DNA of 64,000 bases from Megaleporinus macrocephalus. Its lineage: Eukaryota; Chordata; Actinopteri; Characiformes; Anostomidae. Location of the stretch: the NCBI GenBank assembly GCA_021613375.1, contig CM038726.1, forward strand, positions 7,310,349 to 7,374,348, given 5' to 3'. Position numbers and translations under genes: made by a program. The notes under the pieces were generated by a model, which was not told the origin of the DNA, did not search any database, and was given only the letters and a program-made list of their open reading frames with translations. Shown here piece by piece: positions 3,443-27,402 of the stretch (its first letter is position 1; every line of letters starts with the position of its first letter).

Positions 3443-3568
3443 AGAAAATACTGACTAAAACTTAAAAACAGGACTGAAGATGACCTGTAGACTGCCTCCC
3501 CAGGATTGAACTGACCTTTGTTTTTAGTGGCTTTTATCTTATATTATTTGATAATGAGTGATATTTAA

Positions 3569-4834: not shown

Positions 4835-6300
4835 ATGAGTTGGTCACAGGATATTTTTTCTTTCTGTTTTGGGTTTAAGATCATGACATTTTTAAGGTTC
4901 AGCTCTTTTAACATAAATGGGTGCCGTGATGTGAAAAGGTCCACTCTTTTTAAATATGCAGCATTAAAGGAGGTTAGTTTGCTTTTCTTGCAAAAAACAC
5001 ACACTGACACTAGGAATCATGCACAGTGAGTAAATGAGTGGAAAGGTCAGGCTATTCTTCATGATGGAACCAGTTTAAGTGCCTGTGTAGCATTCGTCCC
5101 GTCATCTGAGTTTCAGGGACAGCAACCCAATGTGACAGAAGCTGTTGCTGGGGAGGATGCTGCGAGTGGATGTAGACCTTTATCGTTTACGTTATTCTTC
5201 CTTTAACATCTATTCTCCAAATATAGGATCTGAATGCTTTATCTTGGTTGGGAAATAACACGAAGCTTTGCAGCACTGTCCTCAGGAGCGGATCATTGTC
5301 TTAGCTGGAGATTTTAACTGTACTTTTGATCATCAGTTAGACAGGAATCATGAGAAACCTAATCCACTTTCAGCAGATAAACTTAGGTCTGTAGTTTTTC
5401 CATGATCTGGTTGATGTATGGTTTCATAGTTGCATCTCTCCTTTCCCCTTATCTGACCATTATATTTCTATTGCTATCTCCTTTACACCAAGCACTGAAC
5501 CTCTCATTTTGGCATATAGTGCATGAAGTGGTGATTCTCGTTTTATGAGGATCTGTATAGTGCAGATACCTTTTTACAGGAGTTTCCTGAAGTACTGGAA
5601 CAGCATAAAAATTACTTGGAACCAAATGTTGACATTTGATGAATTTACCGGCTATGTGTTAGAACAATCTTGAAGGCAAAAACTGCATGTCAGCAATTAT
5701 TCATAATGATCAGTCTTTTTGCATTCCAGAGCATTTTAGATCATTTGTTTCTAATTAGAGATTTACTTTCTTATGTTAAAGAACTTAAACTCAATGTGGG
5801 GCTTTTTTCATTGCACCAGGAGTGAATCATAGCTTTCTGATCAAGGCACTTAAGACTTTTGGTTTCGGACCCAATATTATTTCATGTATTAAGCTTTTAA
5901 GGTCCTTGTGTTCCTGAATCTGTTAAGTGTGGTGAGGAACTTTCTCCATTGGAAGCATGCACTCGAGTGTCATTCTGGACAGCTGCTAAAACATTTCTGT
6001 ATCAGGCTAGTGTAAAGGTCCTGAATTTTCAAGAGCTGAAGGGGCAGTTTGACTCCAAGTTGAGAACCTGTCTCTCGGTTCCTGAGGGGGTGCAACCCTC
6101 ACAGAGGCTCCTTTATAAAAGTCCTCTTCCCAAATATTCAGGAGACCTCTAGTGGAGGGATCCTACATTGTACTGTACCCAACTAATGGTTTTGTGTCTA
6201 GTTTTAACTCTGCTGTTGTCCCGTACTGCGCCCTTTGTAATAATCTTGATTCTGTATTTCACACCTTCTCTGACTGCTCATAACTGGTTCTCCTGGGCAG
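4835..6300 (+). mobile_element. Second Tx1-like LINE fragment, endonuclease to C-terminal part
   Basis: A second copy of the endonuclease start (FSSFNINGCRDVKR, LLFLQKTHTD) is followed by VLAGDFNCTFDHQLDRN near 5300. RT-like pieces follow (around 5820, SLLIKALKTFGFGPNI-like). The stretch at 5949-6152, with SFWTAAKTFLYQASVKVLNF and a LPKYSGDLxW block, resembles the thumb and tail of Tx1 elements. Many stops are present and the central RT is largely deleted. Confidence 0.6.
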
Positions 6301-6827: not shown

Positions 6828-9800
6828 ATGGCGACTGCAAGTAACAGTAAGTTAAACTTCCAGAAGCTACAAAAAGGTTTTACTGTGAACATCATTAAAT
6901 AATTTATCAGAGATTTTATTTTTCTTGTGGAGACACACGACCTACAGCTATTAATGTGTGTGTGTTTCTACACAGATCAGTTTAAACTCTCTGGACCCAC
7001 TGGGGTAGATGAACAGCCTGTTTCTATGGTCACTCTCTACTGCCACCTGTCTCCTGAAATCAGTGCTGTTACCATGGAGATCAGGTGGTTTAAGTGGATG
7101 GACTGTGTTTGTCTGTATAAGAACAGGCAGGTGACAGAGGGGAGGGGCTACGAGGGTAGAGTGAGTCTGATCACTCAGGAGCTGCAGAGAGGAAATGTCT
7201 CCTTACAGATCAGACACTGCAAATGGTCAGATTTAGGATATTATCTGTGTCAGGTCACCAACGGAGACACAACAGAGGAGTGTACAGTAGGAGTGTTTGG
7301 TAAGTATCCAGAAGTTCACTGTCCATAAACTCAACATCATTAGAGTCTGATCTCAGAATGAAAGATGAAGAGACAGAAATGAGAAACACAGATGTTCAGA
7401 ATGGTGTTGTGTTCAGATAAAGGAGGTAAACATACAGAGGATAAATGATGTGAAGGTGGATGAAGGACAGATGGAGCGTTTCAGTAGAATAAACAGTAAC
7501 TCTGTTTCTCACTCGGACACAAAACCAAAACATCATGACTGCAGAGTGTAAAAGTTACAACTGCTGCTTCATTAAAATCTTCTAGAAGAACAAAATTCAG
7601 ATTTTACAGTAAAAACTTGACAACTGGAATATAAAGTGAGACTCATTAAACATCCAGTGATTCTACAGACTGTAGTCAGATAATTGATTTAACACATACA
7701 ATATATATATATTAATCTATAAATATGATATTTAATATGTGACGTCACTACATGCTGCTGACTGACTCTCACTAAAAATCATGTTCTTAACTAATTAAAG
7801 CTGCAGATCCTCAAACTACACAAACAGAAAGGAGCTGTGCCGAGTGAAGAGATAAAACTGAAACTGAGCACCTTTAAATTGGTATTAAATGTTATGATTA
7901 CATTCATGAAATCAATTGTTACTTCAATCTGATATCATAATTAAATATGTAAATCAATAACTTTTGCAGAACTAGTAATGATGAGTGAAATATTACTGTT
8001 ATACAAAGCTGTTTTTATTACTTAATAACATTCTTAATAAATACAAAAAAACACAAAATTAATGTCAGTTAACTGAAAATAAGAATAATACAACAACAGT
8101 CATTCTTTTTGTATTTCATTACAGCATAAGTAGTCCTATAATACACAAATTAATACATAAACAATAACAGATATGCTGTTTATATTGTGTGTTTAGTTAA
8201 AATATTATTAAACACAGTAAACAGTATGTAGAGAAACACTAAATGTACAGATTGATCTTTTCTGTTTGAGGGCTGATATATTCATGTCTTATTGTTGGGG
8301 GTCTATTATGTTTAGAATGTCTTACTGTGGTATAAACGAGTCTCCAGTGCAGTCAGTGCAGGATGTTAATGATAGAGGAAGGTGACTCGACTCAGACAAA
8401 CTCATTCAAATCTTACTTTTCTATCTTTTGTGTAAGACATTTAACTTATTCTCTCCATTATTATCTTATTATTTAAAACCAGTTGTAATTTTAATCTCAT
8501 GAGATTCTCTTATTTCTGAGAGATATTACAAGTTGAAGTGTTGGTTGTGTTGGAGTGTTAAGATTTTCTTCTGAAGATCATGACTCCTGACTGTTACATT
8601 GATTGATCTGTTAGTCTTTATATTCAGTTTATTCATTACTTTTACTTCAATTCCTTCTCATGTTCACTCATTATAAACAAAGTAGAATACATAATTCATT
8701 ATACATATTTAATATATTTTCATGAGTTGATGCAAGATTACTAGTTTACTAATAAACTTACAGAAATAAATGGTAACAATTTACAGTTAAGTATTGAGTT
8801 TCTGCTGTAGGTTTACACTTTAACTGAACATCTTCATGAAGCTGTACTGAAAGCATTGAGTGACAGTTCAGTAGTGAAGGATGAAAAACAACAGTACAGA
8901 TGAGAAAAGGAGATTTCTGATAAGGAGATAAAGAGATTCTGAACTTTTCTAATTGTAAATGATGTTGTGGATGTTTTTTTATCTAACATTGTCTCTTTGT
9001 TGTTTAAACAGGTGATCCAGTAAGTAAATTATATTTACTCATCCTGATACTCACATACACCACATTTTAAAATAAAAGTTTTATTTAATGAATGTGATGA
9101 ACAAAGTCTCTGATCACAGAATGAAGGTTATTGACACAACAGATAAAAGCAGTCTGGACATTCCATCATCAGTACATCCTTATCATTAGAGAGTTTCTTA
9201 TTACTGTAGTTTTCTCACCTCCATTACTGAAAATAGCCTAGAACACACACACTCTGCCTGTTTGTATGAGTCTCTATATGTAAGGGCCTGCCCAATGCTG
9301 GGCTCGAACCCAAGCTGAAGGGGTGAAGTACCAACACTTATCTGGGTGAGCTAATGTAGCCGGTCCTCACACTCCTGCTACCCTTCTATAATCTGCATTG
9401 TGTGTGGGTGTAATAAGACTCAGGACACCGGAATCAGCTTCAGTCTGTGTGTATTTTTCCTGCATAAAAAACAGTTAAAGCAAAGCAGAAAGATATTTTG
9501 GCATCAACAGCTTCTCACAAAATGCCTCTCTCAGTCGAGCTCCATGTAGACTAATACATAGTACATGTGCATATATAAAAAACGTGTATATAAAATTAGT
9601 CATTATATGTATATAATGCTAATCTGTCAAATATAATAAACAATGTCATTAGACACACATAAATAACAAGATACTGTGGAAAAACACAACCAGTGTAAAT
9701 ACATACTGCACACACATCTATTGATGTAAATTCCCTATTTATTTCTACACATGTAGCCACCATTAGTGCTTTCTATTCATGTATCTTATAATCTTGACAT

Positions 9801-10473
9801 CTTCCACATGAATTTACATTTATAGTAAAATGAACCCAAAATGGTGTCCGCCATTTTAAAAACACTTGGTACATCCACTGAAAGTAATTAAACAAAACCA
9901 GAATGACTATGGGAGCACTTACCTGCATAAAAACCATTTAGAGCAAAGCAGAAAGATATTTTGTCTTCAATAGCTTCTCACAAAAAAAACGATATGAAAG
10001 TTAGGTAGGAAAGCCAAGACGCTAATTCTCTCTCTCAGCCACCAGAGGGAGTTAACAGCTTACTGAACATCATGCAGCTGTGCTCAATAAAGACGTTTCA
10101 AAAGTCAGAAACATTACTTGCAACCCCGTAGTGTTCTTTATCAAAATTATATTAGAAACGCTCCTAAATTCACAGTTTAGACTACCAAAATGAGCGATTT
10201 ATGAAGAGCAGTACACAAACGCACCTCTCTGTGGAGCTCAGAGCAGACTGAGGAGAAAAGCGCGCCAAAGCAACGACACGAAGAAAACTATGGGTGCTGA
10301 GAATGACCAAAATGAGCATGTACTCTCATATGCTATATAGAACTACTAAGAACTCTCAAAATTAAATAAAAAAGGGGGATATTCTGTGAAATTAATAACA
10401 AAAAGGTATCACAAAAATAAATAAAGGAGATTATCACATCTGCTACACTAACACCCTGTAATGTGGGTTAGGG

Positions 10474-10509
<36 letters not shown>

Positions 10510-13500
10510 TTAGGGTTAGGGTTAGGGTTAGGGTTAGGGTCACCACACTTGCACCCTCAAAAGTTAGAAAAGTGGTGTAGCACAAAGGCTCTCAGACCTC
10601 AAATACCCAACGTTACCGGCCATGAGCTTAGCTCAAAACTTTGGCAAAGACCCAGCACTGAGTGACTGGATCACTGGGGTTCTATAGCCCTAGCACAGCT
10701 GTGTGGAATCAGGCCTGATTAGTGTGCCTGACTCCCCCTGGTGGAAGGACAATCAGCTCATAATGAACAGTCAGCAGCTCTGAAAGACTTGATTACTGTG
10801 CTCCTCTCATCTCCTACCTTTCAGTTAATTTAGGAATAATCAGCTTCTCTTATTCTGTCTGCAGATCTCTCATCATAGATTGTTCAGTAAAGAGTTACTC
10901 TAATCTTACAGTGTCTGAAGGGAGATTTAAAAGATGTTGTCTTTAGTTTTCTTTGTAACTCAGGGCTTAAATCATGAAATCTTCAGTAAACAGTAAATTA
11001 TTATACATTTGCATTAATTATTAATAATAGTATTAATTTATGAATGTAAAGTACAGACATTTTTGAGTACATAGACAGATATTTAACTAAACTCTTCTTT
11101 AAACAACCTGCAGAACACAATTACAAAAACATTGTTCATTATTGTACAAAAGAAATAGAAATTAAATACTAACAGCTGCCTATATTAGCACTGAGTAGAC
11201 ATTATATGTGCACTGAAAGGCTAATAAACTGAATTACCTCAACACATTTTTACAAAGAGACTACAAAAGAAATAAATACATATTATTATATCATTTAAAT
11301 AAATGTAGCACAGAAAGTACGGAAATTCGTCTTTGGTATATTATTTCTTTGCTCCTTGGCAATAAATCTTATACCGTTGGAAAGCCTGTTCAATCCCCTT
11401 TAAATGGTGCTACATTTGTAAGAAACATGCATTTGTGGGATTAGCAGTAGAGCTTAGTATGTGGGTTGCACCCATGAAAAATTTGCCAAATCCTCTTTGC
11501 CAGTTGAAGTTACATATAACACTGCAAAATGGGTGTCCCAAGGAGACGACACCCTAAGAAAATTGTTTCCTCGCCCTGTCAGTACAGATTTGCAGGACGA
11601 TATGGCCGACGGCTCTCTGCCCAGACAATCCAGAACAGACTGCAGATAGCCAATAAGATTTATTGCCAAGAAGCACATAATCTACCAAAGACAAATTTTC
11701 TTACTTTTTGTGCTATGTTTGTTGTATAAGTGCACAAGAACAATTACACATTTCTGATTCAGTGCAGTGTTTAACTTCATTATATCCAGTTAAAAAAAAA
11801 GTCTAATACTGGTTTAGTGTAGTTCTTAACTTCATTATATCCAGTACTAACAAGTGTCGAATACTGGCTTTAGTACAGTATAAAACTTCATTATATACAG
11901 TTCTAAAAGGTTTATAACGCTGGGTTTAACACAGTATTTAACTTCAATATATCCAGTTCTAAATTTTCTCATATGGGGTTTAGAGCAGTATTTGACTTCT
12001 CTAAAAGAGTCTAAAACTGGGTTTAGCCAAGTATTTAAATTAATCGTATCTAGTTCTAAAAGGTGACTAATACTGGTGCTATTTAGTGCAGTATTTAACA
12101 AAATTATATCCTGTTATAAAAGAGTCTAATACTGGGTTTAGAGCAGTATTTAACTTCATCTTACCCAGTTTTAAAAAGAGTCTAATACTGGGTTGAGTTT
12201 AGTATTTAAGTTTATTATATCCAATTCTAAAAAGAGTCAAATACTGGGTTTAGTTTAGTATTTAATTTAATTATATCCAGGTCGAAAAAGAGTCTACTAC
12301 TGAGTTTAGTACATTATTTAAATTCATTATAACTAGTTATAAAAAGGTTTTAATGCTGGGTTTTTTATGATATTTAACTTCATTGTATCCATTTCTAAAA
12401 GAGTCTAATTGTCTTATACTGGGTTTAGAGCATTATTTAACTTTATTAAATTGAGTTCTATAAAGAGTTTATTACTGGGTTTTGTACAGTATTTAACTTC
12501 ATTATATCCATTTTTAAAAGGGTCTAATACTGGGTTTGTACAGTATTTAACTTTATTATATTCAGTTCTAGAAAGAGTCTAATACAGTATTTAATACAGT
12601 ACTTTAATTATATTCAGTTCTAAGAAGTTTCTAATACTGGGTTTAGAGCATTATTTAACTTTATTAAATCCAGCTCTAAAAAGAGTCTCATACTGGGTTT
12701 AATACAGTATTTTACTTCAATATATCCAGTTCTAAAAGAGTCTAATACTAGGTGTAGTAAAATATTTAACTTCATTGTATCTAGTTATTAAAAGCAAGTA
12801 AAACTGGGTTTAGTACAGTACTTAACTTCATTATCTTCATCATCCAGTTCTAAAAACACTCTAACACTGGGTGTTACGTGCCCTGGCAAAAAATACACAA
12901 GTGGCACTCGCCCCTTACATAGTGTGTATATACAGATACTTAACTATCTGAAATGTATAGTGTTTCTACTTGCCTGTCCACGCTGAGTTGGTAAAAACTG
13001 GAAGAACAGCCTCAACTGAATCCTTCACCATAACGAGAGCTGTGTAGTAGCAGGTAGCCATCACAATAACGAGAGCCGTGTAGTAACAGGTATCATTCAC
13101 AATAACTAGAGCAGTGTAGTAGCAAGCATTAGCAAAACAAGGGCAGTGTAATAGCATCATTAGCAAAAATGAGAGCAATGTAGTAGCAGCATAAGCAAAA
13201 ACGAGAGTAATGTAGTTGCAGCCCCAGATCTGCATCTCCTTCCTGCTTGGGGCCTCTTGTACTGGAAGCCATGCCCTGACTCCAGAAACAGCACAGCCAA
13301 TTGGTCACACATCAGAATCGCCAACAAATCACCTGCAACAGGAAAGAACCAGGAGAGCAAGGGATGTGGAGAGAACCAAGAAAACAAACGCTGGGTTTAG
13401 TTTAGTATTGAACCTTATTATATCCAGTTTCTAACACTGTGTTTAGAGCAATATGTAACAATATGTAAATATCCAGTTTTAAAAAGCATCTAATACTGGG

Positions 13501-16500
13501 TTTAGTACAGTATTTAACTTCATTATATTTAGTTCTAAAAAGTAACTAAAACTGGGTTTAGTACAGTATTTAACATCATTATATCAAGTTCTAAAACAGT
13601 TTAATAATGGGTTTAGAGAATTATTTAAGTTTGTTATATACACTTCTAAAAGTGTCTAATACTGGGATTAGGTTAGTATTCAAATTTATTATATTCATTT
13701 CTAAAAAGCTTCTAATACAGGGTTTAGTACAGAATTTAACTTCAATCTATTCAGTTCCAAAAATTGACTAATACTGGGTTTAGAGCAGTATTTAACTTCA
13801 TTATATCAAGTTCTAAAAATGTACTACAATTGGGCTTAGTTTAGTAGTTAACCTGATTATATCCAGCTCTAAAAAGTTTCTAATACTGGGTTTAGTGCAG
13901 TATTTACCATCATTATATCCAATTCTAAAAGGGTCTAATACTGGGTTTAGTTTAGTATTTAACCTTATTATGTCTAGTTCTAAAATGTTTCTAAAACTAG
14001 GTTTAGAGCAGTATTTAACTTCATTATATCCAGTTCTAAAAAGAGTGTAATACTGGCTTTAGCACAGCTTTCAACTACACCAGTTCAAAAAATGCCCTAA
14101 CATTGGGTTTAGTTTTGTATTTAACTTCACTCTAGCCAGTTCTGAAAACACTCTAACATTGGCTTTAGTAGAGTATTTAATATCATTATATCAAGTTATA
14201 AAAGGGTTTAATACTGGGTTTAGTTTATCATTTAATTATTATTATGTCCAGTTCTAACAAGTTTCTAATACTGGATTTAGAGCAGTATTTAAGTTTATTA
14301 TATATTATATCCAGTTTTAAAAGAATCTAATACTGGGTTTTACCCAGTTTTAAAAACAGTCTAATAATTGGTTTAGAGTATATAACTTTAGGTTTAGGTA
14401 TATAGCTGCCTTATGTCTAGTTTTATATGAGTCTAATACTGGGTATAGTACAGTATTTAACCTCATCATATCTAGTTCTAAAAAGTGACTAATACTGGGT
14501 TAAGTACAGTATTTATATTAATTTTAAGAAGTTTTATAAAGAGTTTAATACTGGGTTTAGTACAACATTTAAATTCAATACATCGAGTTCTAAAAAAAAC
14601 CCTTTCTAGTTTAGTATTTACCCTTAATATTCAGTCCCCAAAAAATGTTATACTGGATTTAGAGCAGTATTTAACTTCATTACATCCAGTTGTAAGAATT
14701 TTCTAATACTGGGCTTAACACAGTATTTAACTTTAATATATCCAGTTCTAAGCTGAGTCTAGTGCTGTGTTTAGTACAGTATTTAACTTCATTGTTCCTA
14801 GTTCTAAATAGTGACTAATACTGGGGTACTTAATTATATCCAGTTCTAAAAACACTCTAACTCTGGTTTTAATGCAGTATTCAACATCATTATATCCAGT
14901 TCTAAAACAGTGTAATACTGGGTTTAGTACAGTATTTAATTTCAGTATTTCCTTTTCAAAAAAAGTGTATAAAACTTTGTTTAGAGCCATATTTAACTTA
15001 ATTATATGCAGTTTTAAAAATTTATTAATACTGGGTTTAGAGCGTTATTTAACTTTATTATATCCAGTTAAAAAAAAGTCTAATGCTGGATTTTGTTTGA
15101 TATTTAACCTTATTATTTCCAATTCTAAAATGTTTCTAACACTTGGTTTAGAGCAGTGTTCAAATTTATTATATCCAGTTCTAAAGATTTCTAATACTGG
15201 ATTAAGCACAATATTTAACTTCAACATATCCAGCTTTAAAAGAGTCTAATACTGGATTTAGTACAGTATTTAACTTCATTTGATCTAATTCTAAAAAGTG
15301 ACTAATAATGGGTTTAATACAGTATTTAACTGCAATATATCTAGTTCTAAAAGTGTCTAAAACTGGATTTAGTACAATATTTAGCTTCATTGTATCTAGA
15401 AAGTTTTTAATACTGGGTTTAAAGCAGTATTGAACTTCATTATATCCAGTTCTAAAAATACTTTAATATGGGGTTTAGTTTAGTATTTAATTTAATTACA
15501 TCCAGTTCTAAAATTGTCTAATACTGGGTTTAGTACAGTATTAAATTATTATTTTGACCTGTTCTAAAAACACTTTAACTCTGGGTTTAGTACAGTATTT
15601 AACATCATTATATTGAGTTCTTAAAAGTGACTAATACTGGGTTTAGTAAAGTATTTTTCTTCATTTTATGCTTTTTTATAAAGAGTTTAATACTGGGTTT
15701 AGTACAATATTTAACTTCAATATGTCCAGTTCCAAAAAAAAGAGTCTAATACTTCGTATAGTACAGTATTTAAGTACATTATATCCTTTTCTAAAAAGTG
15801 TCTAATACTAGGTTTAGTACAGTGTTTAAATTAAGGATTTATTTAATCTAATACTGAGTTTAGAGCAGTATTTAACTTCATTATATCCAGTTCTAAAAAC
15901 ACTCTAATAGAGGGTTTAATTTTTTGGGTTTAGAGCAGTATTTAACTTCATTATATCCAGTTCTAAAAAGACTCTTATACTAGGTTTAATTTAGTATTTA
16001 ACCTCAATATATATATAAAATCCAAAAAGTTTCTAATACTGGGCTTAAAGCAGTATTTCACTTCATTACATCTAGTTCTAAAAAGAGTCTAATACTGGGT
16101 TTAGAGCATTTTTTTATGTATGAATATCCAGTTTTAAAAAGAGACTAATACTGGGTTTAGTACAGTATTTAACATCATTATACCCAGTTCTAATATTGGG
16201 TTTGGTTTATTATTTAACCATAATAAATCCATTCCTAAAAGGTTTCTAATACTGGGTTTAGAGCAGTATGTTACTTTGTTATATCCATTTCTAAAAAGTT
16301 TCAGTATTTAAATTAATTATATTCAGCTATAATAAGAGTCTTATACTGGATTTAGTACGGTGTTTAACTTCATTTTATTTATTTTTCAGTTCTATTAAGA
16401 GTCTAATAATAGGTTTAGTTTAGTATTCATCTTCAGCATATCCAGTTCTAAAAATGTTCTAATACCGGGTTTAGAGCTATATTGAACTTCATTATATGCA

Positions 16501-19500
16501 GTTCTAAAAAGTGAATAATATTGGGTTTAGGGCAGTATTTATTTTCAATATATCCTCTTCCAAAAAGAGACTAATGCTGTGTTTAATTTAGTATTTAACT
16601 TTATTATATCCAGTTCCAAAAGGTTTGTAGTACTGGGTGTACTGCAGTTCTAAAAAGTTCTAAAAAGAGTCTGATACTTGGTTTAGTTCAGTACTTAACA
16701 TTATTATATCCAGTTCTAAAAGACTCTAATACTGTAGTAAAATTGGAGCAGTATTTAACTTCTTCATACCCAGTGTTTAGTACAGGGTTTAGAGCAATAT
16801 TAGTACATTATTTATATTCATTATATCCAGTTCTATAAAGAGTTTAATGCAGAGTTTAGTACAGTATGTGCCTTCATTATATCCATTTCTAAAAAGAGTC
16901 TAATATTGAGTTTTGTACAGAATTTATCCTCATTATATCCAGTTCTATACAGAGGTTAATTCTGGATTTAGTACATTATTTAATGTCATTATATCCAGTT
17001 CTAAAAGTACTGTGATTGTGGGTTTAGTACCATATTTAAATTCATTATATATTTAAATTAATTACATCTAGTTCTAAAAAGAGTCTAATACTGGGCTCAG
17101 TATTGTATTTAACTACATTATATCCAGTTCTAAAAACAGTCTATTACTGAGTATAGTACAGTATTCCACTGCTTGATATCCAGAGTCTAATCCTGGTTTT
17201 AGTACAGTATTTAGCTATATTATATCCAGTTCTGAAAAGAGTCTAATATTGAGTATAGTACATTATTTAAATTCATTATATCCTTTTCTAAAAAGAGTCT
17301 AATACTGGGTTTAGTACAGTATTAAACTTCATTATACCCAGTTCCAAAAAGAGACTAATACTGGTTTTAGGTTAATTAATTTTTTATATATGTTTGTCAG
17401 CAATTATTTTAATTTTGAACAGCACAAAACTCATATTACCGTAACAATAAAATATAATTTATCTTGCAACTCCAAATTCTACAGATAAGAGAGGAGAGAA
17501 TGAAGAGGAAGGAGTGTAAAACAGGCTGAAATAGAGAATAATAATATATTTTTCATACATTGATTCTATATGAATGAGGTTTTTTATATTAATTAATTAA
17601 TGTTGTAGTTTCTTCTCACAGAGCTGTTTAGCAGGGTTTTTATAAAAAACTATACACACACAAACTAGAACTGTGAGAGCAGATTTCCCTCCATTACTCA
17701 GTGAACTATTTGTATTTCTCCTGCTGTGTTTCTTCTTCTCTGAATCTTTAAATAAAAGTGGTACAAACAAGATCTCAAGCGTAATTCGGATGAACAGAGA
17801 TGATTCCACAGCATTTTTACTCACATCCCAGAAACACATGTCTGCCCTCATTTCTATATTCACTCAAATGTCTAAAACAATAAAATGATCTGTATTTTAC
17901 AAAAGTTGTTTTTTTAATAATATATGATTAAAATGTGAGGCTGTCTGAATGAATCTCTTTAGGAAATAACAGAATCTCAGGTGTAATAATGAACAGAAGG
18001 TTGTAATGTGAGGGAGAAGCTCTGAAAGCTCTAGAGAGAAGCAGATGGGCTGCAAGCAGAGAAGCTGGAAGATGGAAGATTAAAAACAGCTAAAACAGAA
18101 AATGAATCTCCTTAAATAAACTCTTTTAATGACCAATAGAGACACATTTATATACATAAACATACACATACAAGTCATCAATGAATTATGACACAGACCT
18201 GCAGGAAAATACAAACAGAGACAGACAGAGAGGACACAGACAAAATTTACAGCAGCAGATAACATTAAATGTCTGAAACAAAATATGAAATATGACATTC
18301 AGTCTGTATCAGATCTTCATAAAGAAAAGAAACTCAACAAAGAGTGCAGCATTTTATACATTTACTGTAAATCTTCAGCTTTTCTGATATTTACATCTAA
18401 TAATGCACAAATGATTCCATACATGAAATATTCACTTTATATTATTCTCTTCACAGTGGCGTTTAGAGATAGAAGAACTGAGACGTGAGTATAAGTCAGT
18501 ATGTAATGTGTGTATTTAGTTGTGTTGATTGTTGATGAAGAGTTTTTTTTGGTGTAAAGACTGAATGTATTTATCTGTACTGAGTGTTCAGAGTGTTCAG
18601 CTGAACATCATCAACAGAAAGAGTTACTAACACACACTTCAGCACTGTATGTATCACTAAAGTGTAGAACTCACAGCAGCCTGAGATATAGACACAAATA
18701 ACAATGTTACCTCACTCACACACATACACACATACATCTACACACTGATACTGACACAACATTAATAACAATGTTACCTCATTCACAAACGCAAACACAC
18801 ACACACATCTGATCTACACACTGATACTGACACTATTAACAAATTTACACACACAAAACTGATACTGAATTAGCATTAATAACACTATTACCTCATTCAC
18901 ACACAAATTAATGAAGAAATAATGTTTCCAATAATGAAATATTACTAATTGATCAGCTGGAATATGAAGTAAATACAGAACAAACAGGTTACAGACAGTC
19001 AGAGAAGTGCAGCAGAAAGACAGACTTATTGAGGAGATGATCATTTTATCTCTTTAACTTGAAGTTTCCGTTTTAGTGATTATTCATTTTTCATCTCAAA
19101 CTCTAGAATATAAACATATAAATATGTTTATATTGAAATAGGAATTATTAAATGATTATTATAAAGAGTTAAAAGGTCTAACTGTTAATACGGTAGTTTA
19201 AAGATTAAAAATCCATATTCTACATGTTCTGGTGTTTATTTTCCTCCTGAGCTTGACTGAGATTTTAGTGCTTTTATGTATGAAAATAGTCAGAATTACT
19301 GTTTATATTTCCTGCCTCTCTTCATCACTTACAATAAAACACACTGTTTGTGTTACTACATCTTTAAGACTGATATATTTAAATGACTTCTGATTGGTGT
19401 GTATTGTGTCTCCTTAACCACGCTGTCTGAAACACTCCTTATAACTTCAGTGTAAGTGGGCAGAGGTAAACTGCTGTAGGGTGAATAGACAGATATGTTC

Positions 19501-22500
19501 TAATGTGGTACTTTTTTGTTTCGATATATGGACTGTATGAAGTGGAGACTGAACTTTTTTATTTTAAAAACATATTTTATATTAACATTAATTTTCCATG
19601 ATACGGTCCTTTAAAACTTTTATACACCATTTCCCTGTATTACTATAGGTATATAAGATTTTATCTTATATTTATAATATATTTATAATATATATTATAT
19701 ATTTTCAATATTGTAAAAGATTTGTTTTTTCTCTTTCTCTTATCTGTTGATGTTTTCTCTCTAATAGATGTCTACGTTTCTCGGGTGAGCACATTATTCT
19801 AAATAGACCACATTTCCTTAATAATCTGCTTTAATATAATTTAAATGAATGTATTAATATAAAGATTATTCTTCATAAAGTTTACATTAATTGAGCTTCT
19901 TTGATGTTGACTTCTCTTTCATGGTGTTGAGTTGATGTTATTATAGTGTTAATGCTGATCAGTGTTCTGTAAGTGATCATGATCCTCAGACGCTGCAGAG
20001 CTGGAACTAGTTTTAATTCCTCTTTTCTGATTTGGGTGTTTCTGTGGATCTGTTACTCTCTACCCATGAGGTCCTGATTGATGAATGATTTATTCTGAAA
20101 ACTGAAAGTATAAGATGTAAAATAGCTCTTATTCAGTTCTTAATAAAATACTGTGTGTGATGATCACAGCACAGTCTCTGTAGTGTATGTGTGAACTCTG
20201 TCTCAATCAGACTGTGTTTAAAGACTCACAACTGTAAACAAATAATGAACATAATGCTGATTAAACATGACTTTAAAAGATGCTGATTTTCAAACACAAT
20301 ATCAGTTTAAATCAGTCAATCAATGGTTAATTGTTACCACTTATATCAGGAAGTAAGCACTATAAACAACCACAGGAGAGCACCTTTCTTTACAACAACG
20401 ATGGAAGATATTGCAGAGAGAGGAAGAGGGAGGGTGAGAATTAGAGGGAAGAAAGAGTGAGAGGTAGGGGTAGAGCTGGGAGAGGAGTTCATGGCCAAAG
20501 AGGACAAGAACTTTCAAATGAGTAAACATAGTTGATCATGTCATCAACCATGAGCTGACAATGCGAGAGGCTGGACAGAGAGTGCAGCCCAACCTGAACC
20601 GTTTACTGTCGCCTCTGTCATCTGGACGTTTAGACTGGAATACATGTATGTAACCAGAATTTCTGTAGAACACCCCATATAGTGTATCAGTTGGGTGACA
20701 TCTGTTTACTTTATAAATGGCTGATGTCATACACTAACTGAACAAGTTTCATGTATATTTACTCCACTGTGGGGGAAATATCTTTAGGCTGCATTGTCTG
20801 TTATATTTTAGTTTTTTCTTTTTACTGAGAGATGCAACCATGGTGGAAGAAGGGGCCAAAATGTTCACCAGGATACAGAAAAGCTGCTGTTGTAAACTAA
20901 TATATTTTTTCTGCACATTTTATCTTTAATTTTCTTTTTTAGTTTGCTGTTTTTTGAAAGCATATTTTTGTTCACTCCAATATAAACATATCTGCTGTGC
21001 ATATGTTGCACTGACTTGTTTGGTTAAAAATACAAAAATAACAGCAGCATGTGTGTGTATCTGCAAATATTTCTGTAAATGTGAACAATCTGGTCTATTT
21101 TAGCATTATGACAGAGCTTGCTAAAGATAAGAGTGCTTTTCATTATGCCCAACAGTGTGTAAATTGTTAGACAAAAATCTGGTTATATGAATGAAGTGTG
21201 TGCCTATTGGTACAAAAGTTTGATTTTAATAATGCTATATGTAGTTTTGGTTGCAGTGCTTCATTTTGCAGGATATATGAGGTATTTTGCAGTTTGGGTA
21301 TGTGGTTTTGTGAATTTCAATAAAACCAGCCTAGATTACAAAATTGTGTTTTAGCAATTGGAAAAAACTGTAATATCAGCCCTTAGTGATTCATACTTAC
21401 ACATTAACAGTGATTTAAACAGAGAAACACTTACTGATCATATAACATACAGAATGACATCATACATGAAATCTTCACAGTGTTTTTTTCAGATAAACAG
21501 CATGTGGACAGAAGAGGAGAGAATGAAAATGGAGGAATCTGCTCTGTTGACCGGTGAGGATGAACATGTTTATTTTTGTAAGCGTGTGTGTTTTAAGTTG
21601 ATGTTGGTATGATGTATAGTTAAAACTATTTTTAGTTTAATATGAAAATATTATCAAAGTCATACATTTGTATTAAAGAAAATATACTTAACAGTTATTC
21701 TTATTTATTTTGAGAAGAAATTCATTTTAACTTCTTTTTTTCTTTTTTACATATTAACACCTCACATTTTTGGTAGTAAGTAAAAGTTTGAGCCCTGATC
21801 AGATTGTTAACAAATCTTCTACAAAGGAAACACTCTTGCACATTTTAACATTGTTTATTAAACTAAATAAAAAAGACTTAATTGTAGGCAAGGTTTTTTG
21901 TAACACATTTTATTCACAAAGACAATTCAGTGTTCTTTAAAAAGATACAAGCTGAAGAAAAATCAAAAGAAAAAATAATGTGTTGAAAATAAAAAAACTA
22001 TTAAATCATTACATAATATTAATTGTTATATATCTAACACATCAGAAAGACATTTGCAAAAACAGTTACACAAAAAATAAACTAAATGTTTTAAAGGATA
22101 CAAACAATACTGAATTAGAAAGAAATACAAAAACAACAGAGGAGGAGAATGAACTGCTGAGACCCTATAGGACACACTGAGAAAGAAAGTGCAGGAGTGT
22201 TTCATTGAGGGGGCTCTTAAAACAAAAGTACTCTCCTATCATCAGTTTCTCCTGTTATTCCCAGCATCTGGAGATGAGACATCAGATCCCCATAGCTCAC
22301 TTGTAAAGGGGCAAAAGGAACTATACTCCAGGCATGAGCTTTCTGGTCAACTGTGGTAAGATTTTATTTTTTTTTTTACACAAATACAGAAGCAGGTATT
22401 AAATATATGTACATTTCTATGATATCAGTTCTGAGAAGGTAATATTTTGTGCGAAAATGTTTTATAAATTGATGTTTTGTTTAATTTTGGGTAAAAAGAC

Positions 22501-25500
22501 AAAAATGTTAGCATTTAGCATTTGTCGAATATCTACATCAAATAAATCACAGACAAAAACGCAATATGCAAAATCTAATAACACACAAAAAGTCTTTCAT
22601 ATATTTATGGTGCAAAGCAATTAAACATTCATTGTTTTGTTGGAAAAGTAATGTAACACTTCTGGAACCTCAAACAAGTGTTCTTTGCGTGCTTTAGGCA
22701 TGCAGCAACATTTATTTATTTACTTACTTTGGAGAGCATTGGCTCACTCTGTATTGTTCTCCTATGGACAATGTGCCTGTTCAAAGTTTCTTTACATTGT
22801 AGACTCATGACAATGTTAGTCAGTACCACTGATTCAAGTCTGGCTGTTATTCAATGGATCCTTTTACTGCTCTGGGCATCTCCATTAAATCATTTCTGAC
22901 AGTAGACTAATGAATACCCAAACTTATCATGTTTAGTACAATATATACAATATGCAACATACATTTTTAACACTGCTCATAGAGCTATAAAAAGAGGATT
23001 GGGAAACTAGGAGAGCAGGCTCTTCTAGCTAATGTTTTAAAAACTGAAGGGTATAAGAGTGAGAGCAGTTTTCATAAATGGCTAAATACACTGTATAGTA
23101 ACTATTAAGCAATGCATTAGTGGACAGTGGTGGTAAAGATTATGAGCCAGATATGCATATTTAGACCCAAAGTTGCTGGAAGGTTAGTGTGTAAACACAC
23201 TACCAGAAATGTGGTTTGCTCGACATGCTTTAATACCAGTGATGATGAACTGGTGAGCATCACATAGCTGGAGCCAACTAATCCAGAGTATGTGCTGAAC
23301 TAGTGTTTGATGCACTGGGAAAATGTTCTGGGAACACCAACAGCCCAGCCTCAGCTGATGTACATGCCACTGGCCATTAGTCTTGTGCCAGATGATTCAG
23401 TTGTCATAAACTGAATGTTGCTGAAACAGCTTATAGCATAGAAGGACTTGTTTTCTGAGGAAGCAAGTGAATTATTTACTATTGTCAACAACTTCTGTGT
23501 TTGAGCATTTAGCATTAAGCTGGTCCTTTTTTGAGCCTCTGTATGTTAATACATAACCATGTAGGACAATGTATACAAATCTTTTTTTAAATAAATCTAC
23601 TTTGATTTTCAAGGAAATTGGATTCTGCACCCCAGCAGCTGTCCATGGACGCTGAAAAGTTCACTCCTGAAATGATAGACAGCTATTTAAAGGATAAACA
23701 TTTTAAAGAATACAGGTACTACTTTTTGACATAATTTGAACAAAGCATCACCACTGTTCAGTTAGTATAACATGTTATAGGTTTTAGTTCTTCTGCTCCA
23801 CAGGTTTGTCTGTCCACATGCTGGTCGGTTTCAGTGCAGACTGACCAACCTTGTGTTTGAGATGGAGGATAAAGGGGAGGTGATGTACAGAATAGACTTC
23901 TGGGATATCCGACTGTTGGATGGTTTTGGTCAGATGCAGCCTGCAGGTCCTCTGTACAATATTGACTGCTTTGAAGGTTCGATCAGTCGTCTGCACCTCC
24001 CACACTGTGAGATACTTTCTGGTAAGTTCAATTTTTGTCTTTTTTACCTTATATTTATATGTATGCGTGCGTTTAGGTCATCATCTACAAATCATTAAAC
24101 CCAAATCTGAGTGTATGTTTGCAGGGCTTTAAATGGGCATTTCAGCAATTGTACAGAAACTTTAATAATAATGTTTTGCATTAAAATATGTTTTACAGCT
24201 TGTTCTTCCTTTACCTTGCAAATATTTTCTTATGTAGAATTTTTAGAATTTTTTGGAAAGTTACCCTTTGTCAGGCAGGGAGGACAGATGGATAGGCGGA
24301 GGCAAATGCAAGCATAAAAAGCAAAACACAAAGTACATGAACTAACATTAACTAAAAACAAGACAGGAACATCGAACAAGCAAGAACATCAAAAACACTG
24401 TGAGCATATCCACACAAAAAGAACCACAAGGGAGAGGGCAAAACAGGTTGTATAAGTACACAGACTAACGAGGGAACAATAGCTGACAGGACTGATACAA
24501 ACGAGGAACCGGTGAGACAGGCAGGGCTAGGGCGGAGGCACAGAGCACATAACAAACCATAAACAGATCCACATGGCTAACACAAGGGAATGACAGGTCG
24601 TAGACCGGGAAACAGGGAAGAGCGTGACACCCTTTCAGTGTTATATTTCTACAGTGAACAAGGAAGAAAGGAAGAAAGTTGCATGGTCCCAAAATTATTT
24701 TGATCCATAACTGACAACAAACAATAAGAAAATGACAATGTTGTATTCGTCCAGTATCTAAATGTAAACTTTTACAATTACTTGCTCATTTAGTTGTTTT
24801 ATTGTAAACTTTACTGTCAGTTCATCATCCATGAATTATCTTTTCTTTGATTTTGTATATCATACAGAGGGAAATCAGGATGGACTGGGTGTGGCACATT
24901 TCACTAAAGGAAATGTAGAGATAATTGAACCACTGAAAGTGACAAACACACATGTAACCATCACAGTCGAAGGCCTTTCCATGTTCGGCCTCCTCTCCAG
25001 GTTCTTCTCTGCAGGCCCCATCAATGCCCAGGTGTTACTCTTCTACAAAATCATATCTGGCAGACAAAACTTGGGAGAAGTGCATATCCATATGTTGCCT
25101 GGAAACGTGCCACTCACAGAGGTAATGCAACTACAGGCCTGTAATGTGTAAAAGTTTTAGAACCACATATTTAATAAGCTAGTTTTCCAGACAGGGAGCT
25201 TTTATTTACTCAGCAAAACACTTTATTTTTGAAATATTCAAACAGTATTAATATAGTAAGTAGTGCTTTTACATACGTCAGTGTGTGTATTTAACCCTTT
25301 CCAAGTTTTTCCTTGTGGAAACAACCCGGTGTTCATGTTACTTTGTATTGTGTTCAGGTATTTTTTGAGAATGTCATCGCAAATCTCAATTTCCTGTTGG
25401 TGTAGGTGAAGAATCAGTATATGGACTTCATAAACATTAAGACCAGTTCTACATGCCAGCTGACACCTCATAGAAAATATAGGCCGTCCTGTGAGCCTTT

Positions 25501-27402
25501 TGTACCCCAGCCAAAGGTAAAACTGCAGCCTGCACCTTGACGCCAACAGGGTTATATTTACATACAATCCTGTTGTACCAATGATTTTCCCACATTAATG
25601 ATATTTTTGCATGCTCATGCATTTAAGCTGCTGTTCTGTTTCCCTAGGTAGAGATGTTTGAACGTGACCATGGTCCAAACTTCCACCCTGCATTTGTGGT
25701 GCAAGCTAAGGCTAAGAGTATCACAGTAAGCCTTTTGGATGAAGATGGCAAAGAAGTGTGGGAACCCCATAATTTCTTTCTTACAGGTAGCCTTGTGCCT
25801 CCAATGTAGAAGCATTGCAGTTATACACCTGATGAATTAAATGGTAGTACTTTCAATAACTTTCGGTATGAACTACTTAATGTATTATAGAGATTCTGAC
25901 AGAATGTTATTAATGAATAAGACTCCCAAAGGAGTTGGATTACTGCTGCCAGGCATAGAAAGTCTTAGAACAAATTGGCAAAAAAAATCAGAATAACAAA
26001 GCTAGGGTAACAGGATATACAGCAAAAAAAAAAAACAAACACAGGATGATTACAAAACACGAAACATGAGATCCACGGTAAACAGGAAATGTTGGACCAA
26101 GACAAGAGGAAAATAGAGGGTATATAGCAATACAGGAAACACCAAACACCTGGGAACAGGAGGAGCTACAGATTCAGAACAGGTGAGGGGCAGAGACAAG
26201 AAGAAACACATGACCACAACATAAACACTTGTAGCACATAGCTACAACCAGGGATGAAAACAAGAGACAGACAGGCAAGAACAGGCAGTGTGTGACAACA
26301 CCGTATAAAAAAGATCCATTGAGTGATTGTGTAAATACAGTTCCTTACAATAGATCAAAATTTTAGTCATGCTTGGTCCATAAATATTATATTTAACATT
26401 TCTGTCTTGTGATATTAGGTACAGAGACAGCCATCCTCAACAAGAATACAGGTATGACATTTTTACTGGTTTCTCTACCTATAAATGTAAATAAACACAA
26501 ATAAACTTATTGAATATTGGATATTGGAGGTGCATTAATGTTTTCAATAACTTATTTTGACTAATAAACTGATTAATTATTTTAATGCTTTACATTACTA
26601 CATGTGTATTTTTTTCTATTATCTTACCTAAATAATACCAGTCACAGAAAATAAATAAAATATTTAAGTATATGTAATTGACTAACTACAGTAACAATGT
26701 CCATGATATTAGGCTACTAAAGTTCATTTCAATATCTAGAGCAAGTACAAAAAATGTCTGTACCTTTAACTGGAGTGTTGTAAAAAGGGCTGCATAAATG
26801 AGTAATGTTACATGCTGTAAATGAATAATGCAAAAAGAAAACCATCTAAAAATACAAATATCTTTTAGTAGAACTAAGTTGCTAAGAACTAAGAACTAAG
26901 AACAGAGTAGTTTGGACTTAATCCTGTTGTACTAGATAGAGATTCATACTCTAACCGAACACTAAGCACTTTTGTAAGTCGCTCTGGATAAGTCTGCTAA
27001 ATGCCGTAAATGTAAATGTAAATTACAGTTACAAGGCAACAGATTGACCAGCAGAGGCCACTATGGGGTTTACATAAGAAGAAGAACATTTTAACTCACA
27101 TAATAACATACAATGCAAAAACATAAAATGTCTTTTTTTCAGGGGTTGAGTTTGTGGATGAAAACAGGGCAGAACTCATCCAAAGAGTTTCATCAGTTAT
27201 GGAAATTGTTGACTGTCTACGAAGCAAAAACATGCTCACTGAAGAAATGTATAGCAACATTAAATCAGCAAAACCATCTCAGGAGCAAATGAGGATCTTG
27301 TACAAAGCTCTGGACACAGGAGGAGGAGCTGTGAAAGAAGAATTCTATAAAATGCTTAAAAGGAAACTGCCTTCCTTAGTGAATGAGCTTGAAGGCCACT
27401 AG
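6828..27402 (+). CDS. Ig V-set - FIIND - CARD protein (copy 1), 14 coding exons
   Basis: Hand-built model; all junctions are GT/AG and phase-compatible. Exons: 6828-6846, 6976-7299, 9012-9019, 18457-18484, 19768-19784, 21493-21577, 22265-22355, 23614-23715, 23804-24021, 24868-25121, 25406-25516, 25648-25786, 26419-26451, 27143-27402. Total 1,689 nt, 562 aa. Ig V-set at about residues 8-114, linker 115-200, ZU5 about 200-298, UPA 299-466, CARD about 478-562. The last three domains are the order found at the C-terminus of NLRP1 and in CARD8, inflammasome proteins in which an autoprocessed FIIND releases UPA-CARD. An in-frame stop lies upstream of the ATG. No signal peptide or membrane segment is visible, so a cytosolic Ig domain is inferred. 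No NACHT or LRR is present. Additional unrecognised exons in the large introns are possible; cDNA would settle the joins. Confidence 0.75.
6976..7299 (+). CDS. Exon 2 of copy 1: V-set immunoglobulin domain
   Basis: Flanked by CACAG and GTAAGT. It encodes model residues 7-115. Canonical V-set landmarks are Cys29 (TLYCHLSPE), Trp44 (EIRWFK) and D92-x-G-x-Y-x-C98. Extra cysteines lie at 50, 52, 88 and 109. The closest recalled family is fish butyrophilin-like/TRIM-associated V domains. It is closely similar to the exon at 36284-36604. Unlike butyrophilins, it is preceded only by a six-residue exon rather than a leader. Confidence 0.9.
9289..9365 (-). repeat. tRNA-derived SINE-like head with A and B boxes
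   Basis: Read on the - strand, TAGCTCACCCAG resembles a tRNA A box and GGTTCGAGCCC a B box, about 40 nt apart, as in an internal RNA polymerase III promoter. A proper cloverleaf was not established, so a tRNA-derived SINE head is more likely than a functional tRNA gene. Confidence 0.55.
9461..9985. repeat. Pair of ~63-bp direct repeats (9461-9523 and 9922-9985)
   Basis: Both copies share TGCATAAAAA, AGCAAAGCAGAAAGATATTT and AGCTTCTCACAAAA with few differences. They flank about 400 bp of AT-rich sequence and could be repeated parts of one element. Confidence 0.6.
10465..10540 (+). repeat. Interstitial telomeric (TTAGGG)n array
   Basis: About 12 units of GGGTTA in tandem with two single-base length variants. 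It lies inside the intronic insertion, far from any evident chromosome end. Confidence 0.95.
11307..11714. mobile_element. 408-bp MITE with long terminal inverted repeats
   Basis: The left end (AGCACAGAAAGTACGG...) and the reverse complement of the right end (AGCACAAAAAGTAAG...) match over about 65 bp, including GTCTTTGGTA and TTGGCAATAAATCTTAT. ATGT on both sides (11303-11306, 11715-11718) is a possible short target duplication. The short interior open stretch has no recognised domain. Confidence 0.75.
11760..17370 (+). repeat. Large ~56-bp minisatellite in intron 3 of copy 1
   Basis: About 90 or more diverged units of the pattern TCTAATACTGGGTTTAG, TACAGTATTTAAC, TTCATTATATCCAG, TTCTAAAAAGAG. 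It is interrupted by a non-repeat block at about 12875-13390. The same unit fills about 1.1 kb of the equivalent intron of copy 2. Spurious small reading frames on both strands come from the unit and are not genes. Confidence 0.95.
12875..13390. mobile_element. Non-satellite insertion inside the minisatellite
   Basis: The minisatellite is interrupted by unrelated sequence starting near TGTTACGTGCCCTGGC. This contains about six ~35-bp degenerate units (GAGAGCxGTGTAGTAGCA, 13030-13220) and then unique sequence before the satellite resumes at GCTGGGTTTAG. It is presumably a transposon fragment of unknown family. Confidence 0.5.
20320..21360 (+). mobile_element. ~1-kb insertion with Tc1/IS630-like transposase N-terminal remnant
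   Basis: Comparison with copy 2 (45.1 kb) shows about 1 kb extra here. Within it, a frame from about 20401 begins MEDIAERGRGRVRIRG. Later frames give a VNHELTMREAGQRVQPN-like stretch and, near 20840, GGRRG with a MFTRIQ-like block. This matches the HTH N-terminus of Tc1/IS630-type transposases common in fish. The rest is AT-rich and noncoding. Confidence 0.55.
22265..25786 (+). CDS. Exons 7-12 of copy 1: FIIND (ZU5 + UPA)
   Basis: Six exons encode residues about 191-466. ZU5 is recognised by KFTPEM, YRFVCPHAGRFQCRLTNLVF, a PAGPLYNIDC block and LHLPHCE. UPA begins at EGNQDGLGVAHF and continues through QVLLFYKI, STCQLTPHRKY and a KSITVSLLDEDGKEVWE block. Aligning to recalled human NLRP1 without gaps, His308 matches the catalytic His of the FIIND and Ser335 (codon 24978-24980) matches the nucleophile, but the residue before the cut is Leu334 rather than Phe. 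Both block boundaries are phase 1, so the whole set can be lost without a frameshift. The paralogue near 46 kb lacks it. Confidence 0.88.
24270..24635. repeat. Unclassified non-autonomous repeat in intron 9 of copy 1
   Basis: A purine-rich, CpG-containing block unlike the AT-rich intron around it runs from GGCAGGGAGGACAG to GAGCGTGACACC. Its style resembles 25950-26300. No coding capacity is seen. Confidence 0.35.
25930..26305. repeat. Unclassified non-autonomous repeat in intron 12 of copy 1
   Basis: An A-rich block from about CTGCCAGGCATAG to AGGCAGTGTGTGACAAC, resembling the block at 24270-24635 in composition and end sequence. It is absent from the second gene, where this whole region is missing. 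Confidence 0.35.
26880..27025 (+). repeat. L2/SINE-type 3' tail
   Basis: Contains TTGTAAGTCGCTCTGGATAA and TCTGCTAAATGCCGTAAATG, the widespread 3' tail of fish L2-type LINEs and the SINEs that borrow it, ending in a TAAATG repeat. Confidence 0.75.
27143..27402 (+). CDS. Exon 14 of copy 1: C-terminal CARD
   Basis: The acceptor TTTTTTTCAG precedes GVEFVDENRAELIQRV. The exon encodes about 85 residues ending in LVNELEGH and a TAG stop. The pattern F-V-D-x-x-R-x-x-L-I-x-R-V, L-T-E-E-x-Y and Q-M-R-x-L matches the CARD of NLRP1/CARD8. In those proteins this domain recruits caspase-1, directly or through ASC. An AATAAA lies 115 nt downstream. Confidence 0.92.

Follow-up and report, generated by a model that had tools for sequence, protein, structure and literature searches.

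A predicted leaderless V-set head on a FIIND-CARD module in Megaleporinus macrocephalus, a candidate cytosolic sensor or bait

Introduction

Can an immunoglobulin (Ig) domain serve as the sensing end of an inflammasome protein inside the cell? The question is raised by a stretch of the genome of the characiform fish Megaleporinus macrocephalus (the window, 64,000 nucleotides at positions 7310349-7374348 of contig CM038726.1, here C25, in a genome of 1.28 Gb), where a chain of exons is predicted to set an Ig V-set domain without a signal peptide ahead of a FIIND-CARD module. Ig V domains are generally regarded as extracellular modules. FIIND-CARD modules occur in NLRP1 and CARD8, which one article describes as the sole mammalian FIIND proteins and whose FIIND, it states, self-cleaves into halves that remain together (PMC11760013). 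An earlier note, made from the sequence of the window, had proposed this chain and suggested that its V-set could act in the cytosol as a ligand- or effector-sensing bait. Here, we analyze the gene (copy 1), a tandem relative beside it (copy 2) and their relatives in this and other fish; our best reading is that copy 1 encodes a cytosolic sensor or bait mounted on a FIIND-CARD module. Positions without a prefix are those of the window, and those prefixed C25 are those of the contig.

Results

A V-set, a coil and a FIIND-CARD module in one open frame

Copy 1 (6828-27402, + strand, as for all exons of both copies) is modeled as 14 coding exons, bounded by GT-AG splice sites, that make one open frame of 554 amino acids, in the order butyrophilin-like V-set, short coil, FIIND (ZU5-UPA) and CARD. 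Four Pfam matches lie above the curated cut-offs: V-set (residues 23-104, E = 4.6e-10), FIIND (PF13553, residues 210-336, E = 4.6e-45), UPA-FIIND (PF23679, residues 341-451, E = 1.9e-24) and CARD (PF00619, residues 471-553, E = 7.7e-13). The in-frame chaining of a V-set exon to a complete ZU5-UPA-CARD module, as the earlier note had read it, thus holds. Pfam gave no NACHT or LRR match within the 554 residues, no C-set or B30.2 match in copy 1, and no AIG1 domain in the chain of either copy.

The head of the protein is encoded by six exons. Exon 1 (6828-6846, from the splice chain) encodes a leaderless MATASN start and ends in phase 1, and exon 2 (6976-7299, phase 1-1) carries a butyrophilin/MOG-like V-set, recognized by Pfam, by sequence similarity to BTN2A1 and by an AlphaFold2 model. 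Exons 3-6 (8, 28, 17 and 61 nt) were placed by splice signals, frame and homologs with the same coil (P0117 and P0002 in the protein census described below). Exon 3 (9012-9019) is a microexon that puts the coil exons in frame and is the weakest exon of the model; its splice sites are retained in copy 2 (38898-38905). Exons 4 (18457-18484) and 5 (19768-19784) encode linker or coil and follow from the splice chain, and exon 6 (21493-21553) encodes the coil WTEEERMKMEESALLT, a motif also found 3' of the V-set in P0117, P0002 and others.

The remaining eight exons encode the FIIND-CARD half. Exon 7 (22265-22355) is a linker to the FIIND, placed by the splice chain and with a homologous exon at C25:7121266; exon 8 (23614-23715, splice chain and genome matches) begins the ZU5 subdomain, which continues in exon 9 (23804-24021, Pfam FIIND). 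Exon 10 (24868-25121) spans the ZU5/UPA junction and, by alignment to chain 6x6c_E, holds the codons for His300 (24897) and Leu326-Ser327 (24975-24980). Exons 11 (25406-25516) and 12 (25648-25786) are UPA exons by Pfam UPA-FIIND, exon 13 (26419-26451, splice chain) is a UPA-CARD linker retained in copy 2, and exon 14 (27143-27402, Pfam CARD) encodes the CARD and the stop codon, with an AATAAA signal at 27517.

Phase arguments bear on this chain in several ways. The Ig exon exits in phase 1 and exon 7 enters in phase 1, so that a direct join between them would also keep the frame, and a phase match at any single join is expected by chance one time in three. We rejected a chance frame for the architecture as a whole, since this is seen again at another locus and in further species. 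A reading of exons 4-6 in a different frame with exon 3 skipped, to which three synonymous changes at third positions of exon 4 had pointed, was also rejected, as it meets an immediate stop in copy 2 exon 6 and relatives use the other of the two frames. The joining of the copy 1 exons in one transcript is supported, although unproven.

The architecture recurs, and its head belongs to a large family

A second V-coil-FIIND-CARD locus lies 3 Mb away at C25:10428405-10448091, where a MATASN exon 1, V, coil, ZU5, UPA and CARD follow in order; it is known from exon matches rather than a full splice chain, and five joined FIIND-CARD exon matches run without a stop. In annotated proteins, we took the best 120 each of 265 matches (with copy 1 as the query), 142 matches and 167 matches in our protein searches and classified the 347 distinct listed proteins with profiles of our own construction and one motif pattern. 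Four of the 347 combine V-set, FIIND, UPA and CARD: P0002 (Metynnis), P0003 (Colossoma) and P0006 and P0007 (Acnodon), all from Serrasalmidae within Characiformes. The architecture that the earlier note had proposed to seek in other teleosts is therefore present in three serrasalmid species. Such relatives sit in databases under misleading automatic names: P0003 is called NACHT, LRR and PYD protein 1b allele 2-like, and P0117 and P0285, both V-set-coil-AIG1 proteins, are called trichohyalin-like.

Far more often, the V domain has another partner. A V domain of this kind is present in 242 of the 347 proteins, with AIG1 in 55, with the coil motif only in 70, with FIIND-CARD in 4 and alone in 113, whereas AIG1 and FIIND are combined in 16 proteins and 75 have FIIND-CARD only. 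One V-coil head is thus common to two back ends, AIG1 and FIIND-CARD, and AIG1 can itself take the head position before FIIND-CARD. The coil motif precedes the FIIND in 9 of 109 FIIND proteins, five of which have no V-set in their model, and the V-coil-AIG1 protein P0117 comes from a catfish (Siluriformes). The features of the leaderless V-set-coil family, namely a MATASN-like exon 1, a phase 1-1 V-set exon and a WTEEERxKM coil exon, are all present in copy 1, whose head is one branch of a large family of otophysan fish. The Ig-headed FIIND-CARD protein is not a lone oddity, given the tandem V-coil-CARD copy, the second locus and this family. The idea that other FIIND-CARD N-termini are NACHT-LRR or short was incomplete; those exist, but precomputed Pfam assignments for the listed matches also include AIG1, PYD, NACHT, GBP, RING/TRIM and SAND heads. 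Outside Otophysi, P0284 of Chanos chanos (Gonorynchiformes) is a V-set plus AIG1 protein, and the V-AIG1 fusion may therefore predate Otophysi.

A genome search with the V exon gave 79 matches. Every match of at least 75% identity is on C25, where these form 28 loci (one split match merged) between 7.24 and 10.80 Mb; two matches of ~60% fall on C4, and the remainder are weaker. A FIIND exon has 22 matches: 18 places (one split in two rows) at 6.3-7.4 Mb of C25, one at 10.44 Mb within the V cluster and two elsewhere. AIG1 exons are present in both C25 clusters, with counts that are lower bounds, 150 of 323 candidates having been scored. We paired the V loci with 40 C25 AIG1 places, comprising those above 7.2 Mb and two below, and with the other modules. 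The next same-strand module within 60 kb is AIG1 at 17 of the 28 V loci, FIIND at two (window copy 1 and C25:10428560), CARD without FIIND at two (window copy 2 and C25:7241141) and neither at seven, a pairing made by position only, with the coil exon confirmed at 4 of the 17 V-AIG1 pairs. The sequences of four V-AIG1 loci were examined, and each has this coil exon between its V and AIG1 exons. The second V-coil-CARD locus spans C25:7241135-7255374.

A tandem copy lacks the FIIND exons

Copy 2 (36136-46889) encodes V-set, coil and CARD in 252 amino acids, in frame without the FIIND exons. Its exon 1 (36136-36154, splice chain) again encodes MATASN and its exon 2 (36284-36604, Pfam) the V-set; exon 3 (38898-38905, 8 nt), linker exons 4 (41503-41530) and 5 (44626-44642) and coil exon 6 (45287-45365) follow from the splice chain, as does the UPA-CARD linker exon homologous to exon 13 (46017-46049), and the CARD exon with the stop (46636-46889, Pfam CARD) precedes an AATAAA at 46952. 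By blastn, the two copies align blockwise from 72 bp 5' of exon 1 to the CARD exon, with several intron gaps and 91.6% identity over the first 1.1 kb. The 4.3 kb at 22078-26359 of copy 1, which hold FIIND exons 7-12 (915 nt, a multiple of three), have no counterpart in copy 2, where the ends of the blastn alignment place the corresponding site at 45815-45957; exon 7 and the other FIIND exons gave no tblastn match there. The coil exon donor of copy 2 lies 18 nt further on, yet remains in frame with exon 13 and the CARD. Across the matched exons, we count 104 substitutions, three 3-nt gaps, the 18-nt donor shift and zero stops, where ~4.2 stops would be expected under neutrality (P ~0.014).

Long arrays of a ~56-bp repeat occupy one and the same intron of the two copies, at 11755-17394 and 39813-40923 (+), that of copy 1 being far longer. 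A minisatellite of ~42 bp (41530-42270) begins at the exon-4 donor of copy 2, so that donor-like sequence is itself repeated many times; similar arrays lie at C25:7110803-7112040 and near C25:7244914 and C25:7247117.

The absence of a leader is a family trait

An in-frame stop lies six codons 5' of the copy 1 ATG, and the interval between them holds no other in-frame ATG. The same type of start is found across the contig: at 24 of the 28 V loci, a very small first exon codes for MATASN or a closely similar peptide, its ATG lying 105-166 bp 5' of the V exon and its donor having the correct phase. Among the 242 V homologs, 133 have at most 12 residues ahead of strand A, many of the MATASN or MAAARN type, and 67 have a longer start with no leader-like run; 21 begin inside the V domain, nine lack a first Met and two have a V domain that is not first. 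By a rough rule, 10 have a leader-like hydrophobic run, and several of these resemble intron read-through or hold a later MATASN-type start. These start classes are approximate, a cruder first pass having given 13 leader-like starts, of which P0213 and P0238 fall among the 133. The absent leader is thus a trait of the V head in general, and the MATASN start, upstream stop and missing signal peptide that the earlier note had described for copy 1 are confirmed.

The possibility of a missed upstream leader exon was considered and rejected: the copies resemble each other only from ~72 bp 5' of exon 1, and in-frame stops closely precede this exon in both. We also scanned introns 7320-21480 and 36620-45270 for hydrophobic exon candidates and found none in copy 1 and two in copy 2, none being common to both. 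The leader or membrane exon that would have contradicted a cytosolic Ig fold was therefore not found in these intervals. Fusion of the same head to AIG1 GTPase domains also argues for the cytosol, and a cytosolic site for the copy 1 protein is supported in this way, although unproven.

The V-set varies at one pole

The closest sequences to the V-set are those of butyrophilin BTN2A1/BTN3A and MOG chains, and the AlphaFold model of the V-set (predicted local distance difference test score, pLDDT, 92) has MOG 1pko among the best structural matches, at a TM-score of 0.93. We compared the 26 intact V exons out of the 28 contig loci. The ratio of nonsynonymous to synonymous differences (pN/pS) is 0.92 overall, rises to 1.41 and 1.67 in the A'B and EF loops, respectively, and is 0.40 in C'-C'' and 0.07 in strand E; a seven-residue DE stretch reaches 2.00, from very few changes. 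Pairwise amino-acid differences average 0.397 in A'B, CC' and EF together, 0.113 in the loops that resemble complementarity-determining regions (CDRs) and 0.162 overall. None of 106 circular shifts matches the value for A'B+CC'+EF, a grouping chosen after the first variation table was known. Variation is therefore concentrated at the A'B/EF pole, opposite the CDR-like loops. Hypervariable CDR loops of the antigen-receptor type were looked for and are not seen, the CDR-like loops being nearly constant among the 26 paralogs. Cysteines 22, 43, 45 and 91 of the V exon, which include the canonical pair, are invariant (26/26), and an N-x-S motif (NVSL) is retained in the 26 sequences.

The FIIND-CARD half resembles NLRP1 and CARD8

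The FIIND-CARD half of copy 1 matches NLRP1 chains 7crw and 6x6c and CARD8 7jkq, and the closest solved CARD is the GBP-like 4irl. His300 aligns ungapped with NLRP1 H1186, 27 residues before the Ser in both proteins. Ser327 aligns ungapped, in chain 6x6c_E, with NLRP1 Ser1213, the cleavage site of NLRP1 as given in PMC11760013. Among the 113 FIIND rows with a residue at these columns, Ser is present in 110 and His in 103. Copy 1 thus shares with NLRP1 and CARD8 the ZU5-UPA-CARD order, the cleavage-site Ser and the His 27 residues earlier, but has a V-set-coil head in place of a NACHT-LRR or an unstructured tail, and Leu in place of Phe before the Ser.

Other known proteins resemble one end of copy 1 or the other. 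The zebrafish Gbp3 and Gbp4 proteins, published as GBP-CARD proteins with the FIIND named in a figure legend (PMC4932187), carry a fish FIIND-CARD back end under another head, a GTPase rather than an Ig domain. Predicted otophysan AIG1(GIMAP)-FIIND-CARD proteins (such as P0011, P0019 and P0067) have an AIG1 GTPase head and no V-set, yet among the listed database sequences P0011 and P0067 have the FIIND-CARD closest to that of copy 1. Conversely, leaderless V-set-coil-AIG1 proteins of otophysan fish (such as P0117, P0285 and P0292) share its MATASN-type start, V-set and coil but have an AIG1 back end without FIIND or CARD. Butyrophilins and MOG share the V-set fold and sequence, whereas copy 1 has no signal peptide, C-set, membrane segment or B30.2 domain.

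The V-FIIND-CARD genes do not form one clade by their FIIND-CARD half

In a tree of 96 FIIND-CARD rows, copy 1 falls with the AIG1-FIIND-CARD proteins that come from Astyanax and Prochilodus (100/99), apart from the serrasalmid V-FIIND-CARD proteins, and the V label requires at least three changes. In a quick tree that includes genome rows, the partner of copy 1 is a coil-FIIND-CARD paralog from 7.12 Mb (99), the 10.44-Mb locus joins the serrasalmid proteins and one Prochilodus FIIND-CARD (95), and the V label requires at least two changes. Approximately unbiased (AU) tests, for groups that were named after the tree was known, reject forcing copy 1 together with the four serrasalmid V-FIIND-CARD rows (p-AU 6e-44, 38 rows) or with the whole nine-row clade of serrasalmid V-FIIND-CARD and nearest FIIND-CARD relatives (p-AU 9e-6). 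For the FIIND-CARD half, trees and AU tests together rule out V-FIIND-CARD as a single clade. One genome thus contains two lineages of V-FIIND-CARD genes, of which one is close to those of the serrasalmids. They could have arisen by two joinings, by a single joining whose heads were later replaced, or by conversion of the 3' half, and the resolution of the V-set tree is too poor to separate these scenarios.

The coil-FIIND-CARD paralog (C25:7120054, within C25:7110000-7139999) has FIIND exons 81-97% identical to those of copy 1. Tandemly repeated V-gene intron sequence occurs upstream of it, but no V match was found back to C25:7090000; a further coil exon lies at C25:7099703.

Neighboring genes

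The window is closely flanked by a FIIND-CARD gene (C25:7301309-7306406) and by an AIG1 sequence with FIIND-CARD after it on the opposite strand (C25:7384465-7378014). Three AIG1 GTPase copies 3' of copy 2 (~51821-52544, 54664-55461 and 56427-57062, within 51815-57122, +; Pfam AIG1 and tblastn) are neighbors whose membership in either gene is not shown. The first matches in two frames (51821-52036, then from 52011 onward) and the third has two stops (C25:7366760-7367452), so both may be decayed; the middle copy is open. Further features are a TRIM-like open frame with a RING finger and B-box (58724-59329, +) and an insulin exon (63664-63903, -; Pfam Insulin, E = 2.6e-10). Positions 1-5000 hold open frames resembling transposon or long interspersed element coding sequence; three were scanned, and 3569-3805 alone gave a match, a weak one to an endonuclease, below its cut-off.

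Discussion

We favor, with a probability of about 0.62, the reading that copy 1 encodes, as a single gene, a cytosolic FIIND-CARD protein with a leaderless butyrophilin-like V-set and coil as its sensor end, working as follows. The V-coil head would be a reusable front half, usually placed ahead of an AIG1 GTPase, that came to stand before FIIND-CARD in two separate C25 lineages through separate joinings, later head swaps or conversion of the 3' half. On the model of NLRP1 and CARD8, the FIIND would cut itself at Leu326-Ser327 and the halves would remain associated. The A'B/EF pole of the V domain, the part most variable among paralogs, could be touched by a pathogen product or a host partner, and removal or degradation of the N-terminal V-coil-ZU5 half could then free the UPA-CARD, again as in NLRP1 and CARD8. 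The freed fragment may signal via ASC to a caspase, as those proteins do. In zebrafish, the FIIND-CARD proteins NLRP1 (PMC9978379) and Gbp4 (PMC4932187) are reported to act through Asc. Copy 2, having no FIIND, could not be armed by FIIND release; its V-coil-CARD protein might instead be a regulator, a decoy or a constitutive adaptor. The bait idea of the earlier note survives in part, for the V domain does vary, but at the A'B/EF pole and not in the CDR-like loops, and its cytosolic placement of the Ig fold gains support from the leaderless family and the AIG1 fusions.

Several observations weigh against this reading. Between the copies, the ratio of nonsynonymous to synonymous substitution rates (dN/dS) is ~1 (Ig 1.10, CARD 0.89, coil 1.98), and exon 13 has five nonsynonymous and no synonymous changes; such values imply diversifying or weakly constrained sequence, and relaxed constraint is possible. 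The canonical cysteine pair of the V domain and its two further cysteines are usual for oxidizing compartments. In the FIIND, Leu precedes the Ser in copy 1 and in 104 of 113 FIIND rows, where NLRP1 has Phe, and copy 1 has Ile309 in the column of NLRP1 Glu1195, presumably a catalytic residue, and Glu at positions 307 and 310. We did not count the Phe or the Glu as defining FIIND-CARD sensors, and cleavage at Leu-Ser is a prediction that stands unproven. Among the serrasalmid proteins, P0006 and P0007 begin inside the V domain, and the full-length AlphaFold model of P0002 is poor (pLDDT 62.7), probably owing to misaligned V-only rows. At C25:10428405-10448091, no match to window exons 7 and 8 was found.

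The joined model could be a prediction artifact spanning two adjoining genes, a leaderless V-set-coil gene (exons 1-6) and a FIIND-CARD gene (exons 7-14). Many annotated relatives are indeed short V or V-coil proteins (for example, P0127 and P0129), many FIIND-CARD models have no V-set (the 75 with FIIND-CARD only), and the FIIND-CARD half of copy 1 is nearest to AIG1-FIIND-CARD proteins and to the coil-FIIND-CARD paralog at C25:7120054, which has no V match back to C25:7090000. We nevertheless consider such an artifact quite unlikely, because the architecture occurs again at the second locus, at a distance of 3 Mb, and in three species of Serrasalmidae, their FIIND-CARD grouping with that of the second locus, because the coil motif precedes the FIIND even in five proteins whose models have no V-set, and because the shifted coil donor of copy 2 still reads in frame into exon 13 and the CARD. 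A V-set that faces the outside, through an unseen leader exon or a leaderless route to the surface, seems very improbable. It would suit the butyrophilin-like fold, the invariant cysteines and the retained N-x-S, and a few relatives have a hydrophobic stretch C-terminal to the V domain (for example, P0170, P0202 and P0210) or one of the 10 leader-like starts (13 by the cruder pass). However, exon 1 is leaderless at 24 of 28 loci, several of those starts resemble read-through or precede a MATASN-type start, the introns scanned in the two copies hold no common hydrophobic exon candidate, and the same head is followed by either FIIND-CARD or AIG1.

A different division of labor, which we regard as somewhat unlikely while granting it more credit than either of these, would make the V-set a homotypic assembly domain that clusters through V-V or coil-coil contacts, leaving sensing to a FIIND/DPP9 checkpoint or to partner GTPases. 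Butyrophilin ectodomains dimerize, the coil is common to the V-AIG1 genes and the CDR-like loops are nearly constant among the 26 paralogs (0.113 versus 0.162 overall), all of which would fit an assembly surface. Such a surface by itself leaves unexplained the strong variability of the A'B/CC'/EF pole (0.397, unmatched in the circular shifts, with the loops grouped post hoc).

More broadly, and as a doubtful extension of that reading, otophysan fish could have a megabase-scale locus of cytosolic Ig-V immune receptors in which the V-coil head is exchanged between at least two effector ends, AIG1 GTPase and FIIND-CARD, and in which intracellular targets are bound by the A'B/EF pole rather than the CDR pole. 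The invariant cysteines, which would normally form disulfides, could turn the V fold itself into a conditional fuse that unfolds in the reducing cytosol when reduced or damaged; degradation of the N-terminal half and release of the UPA-CARD would follow.

We found no description of a V-set-FIIND-CARD architecture in the literature searched, a library of 5.39 million papers in which long result lists were covered in part and subscription journals lay mostly outside coverage. Copy 1 is best seen as a FIIND-CARD protein with a new head, from a head family that looks undescribed. If these proposals are correct, an expanded family with a leaderless butyrophilin-like V domain before an inflammasome module would add a novel type of sensor head for use inside the cell, FIIND-CARD would emerge as a back end onto which many heads can be plugged, and the locus would be an Ig-based counterpart to the repertoire of NLR (nucleotide-binding, leucine-rich-repeat) proteins. 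The 28 paralogous V loci on one contig provide a natural set for mapping what is sensed.

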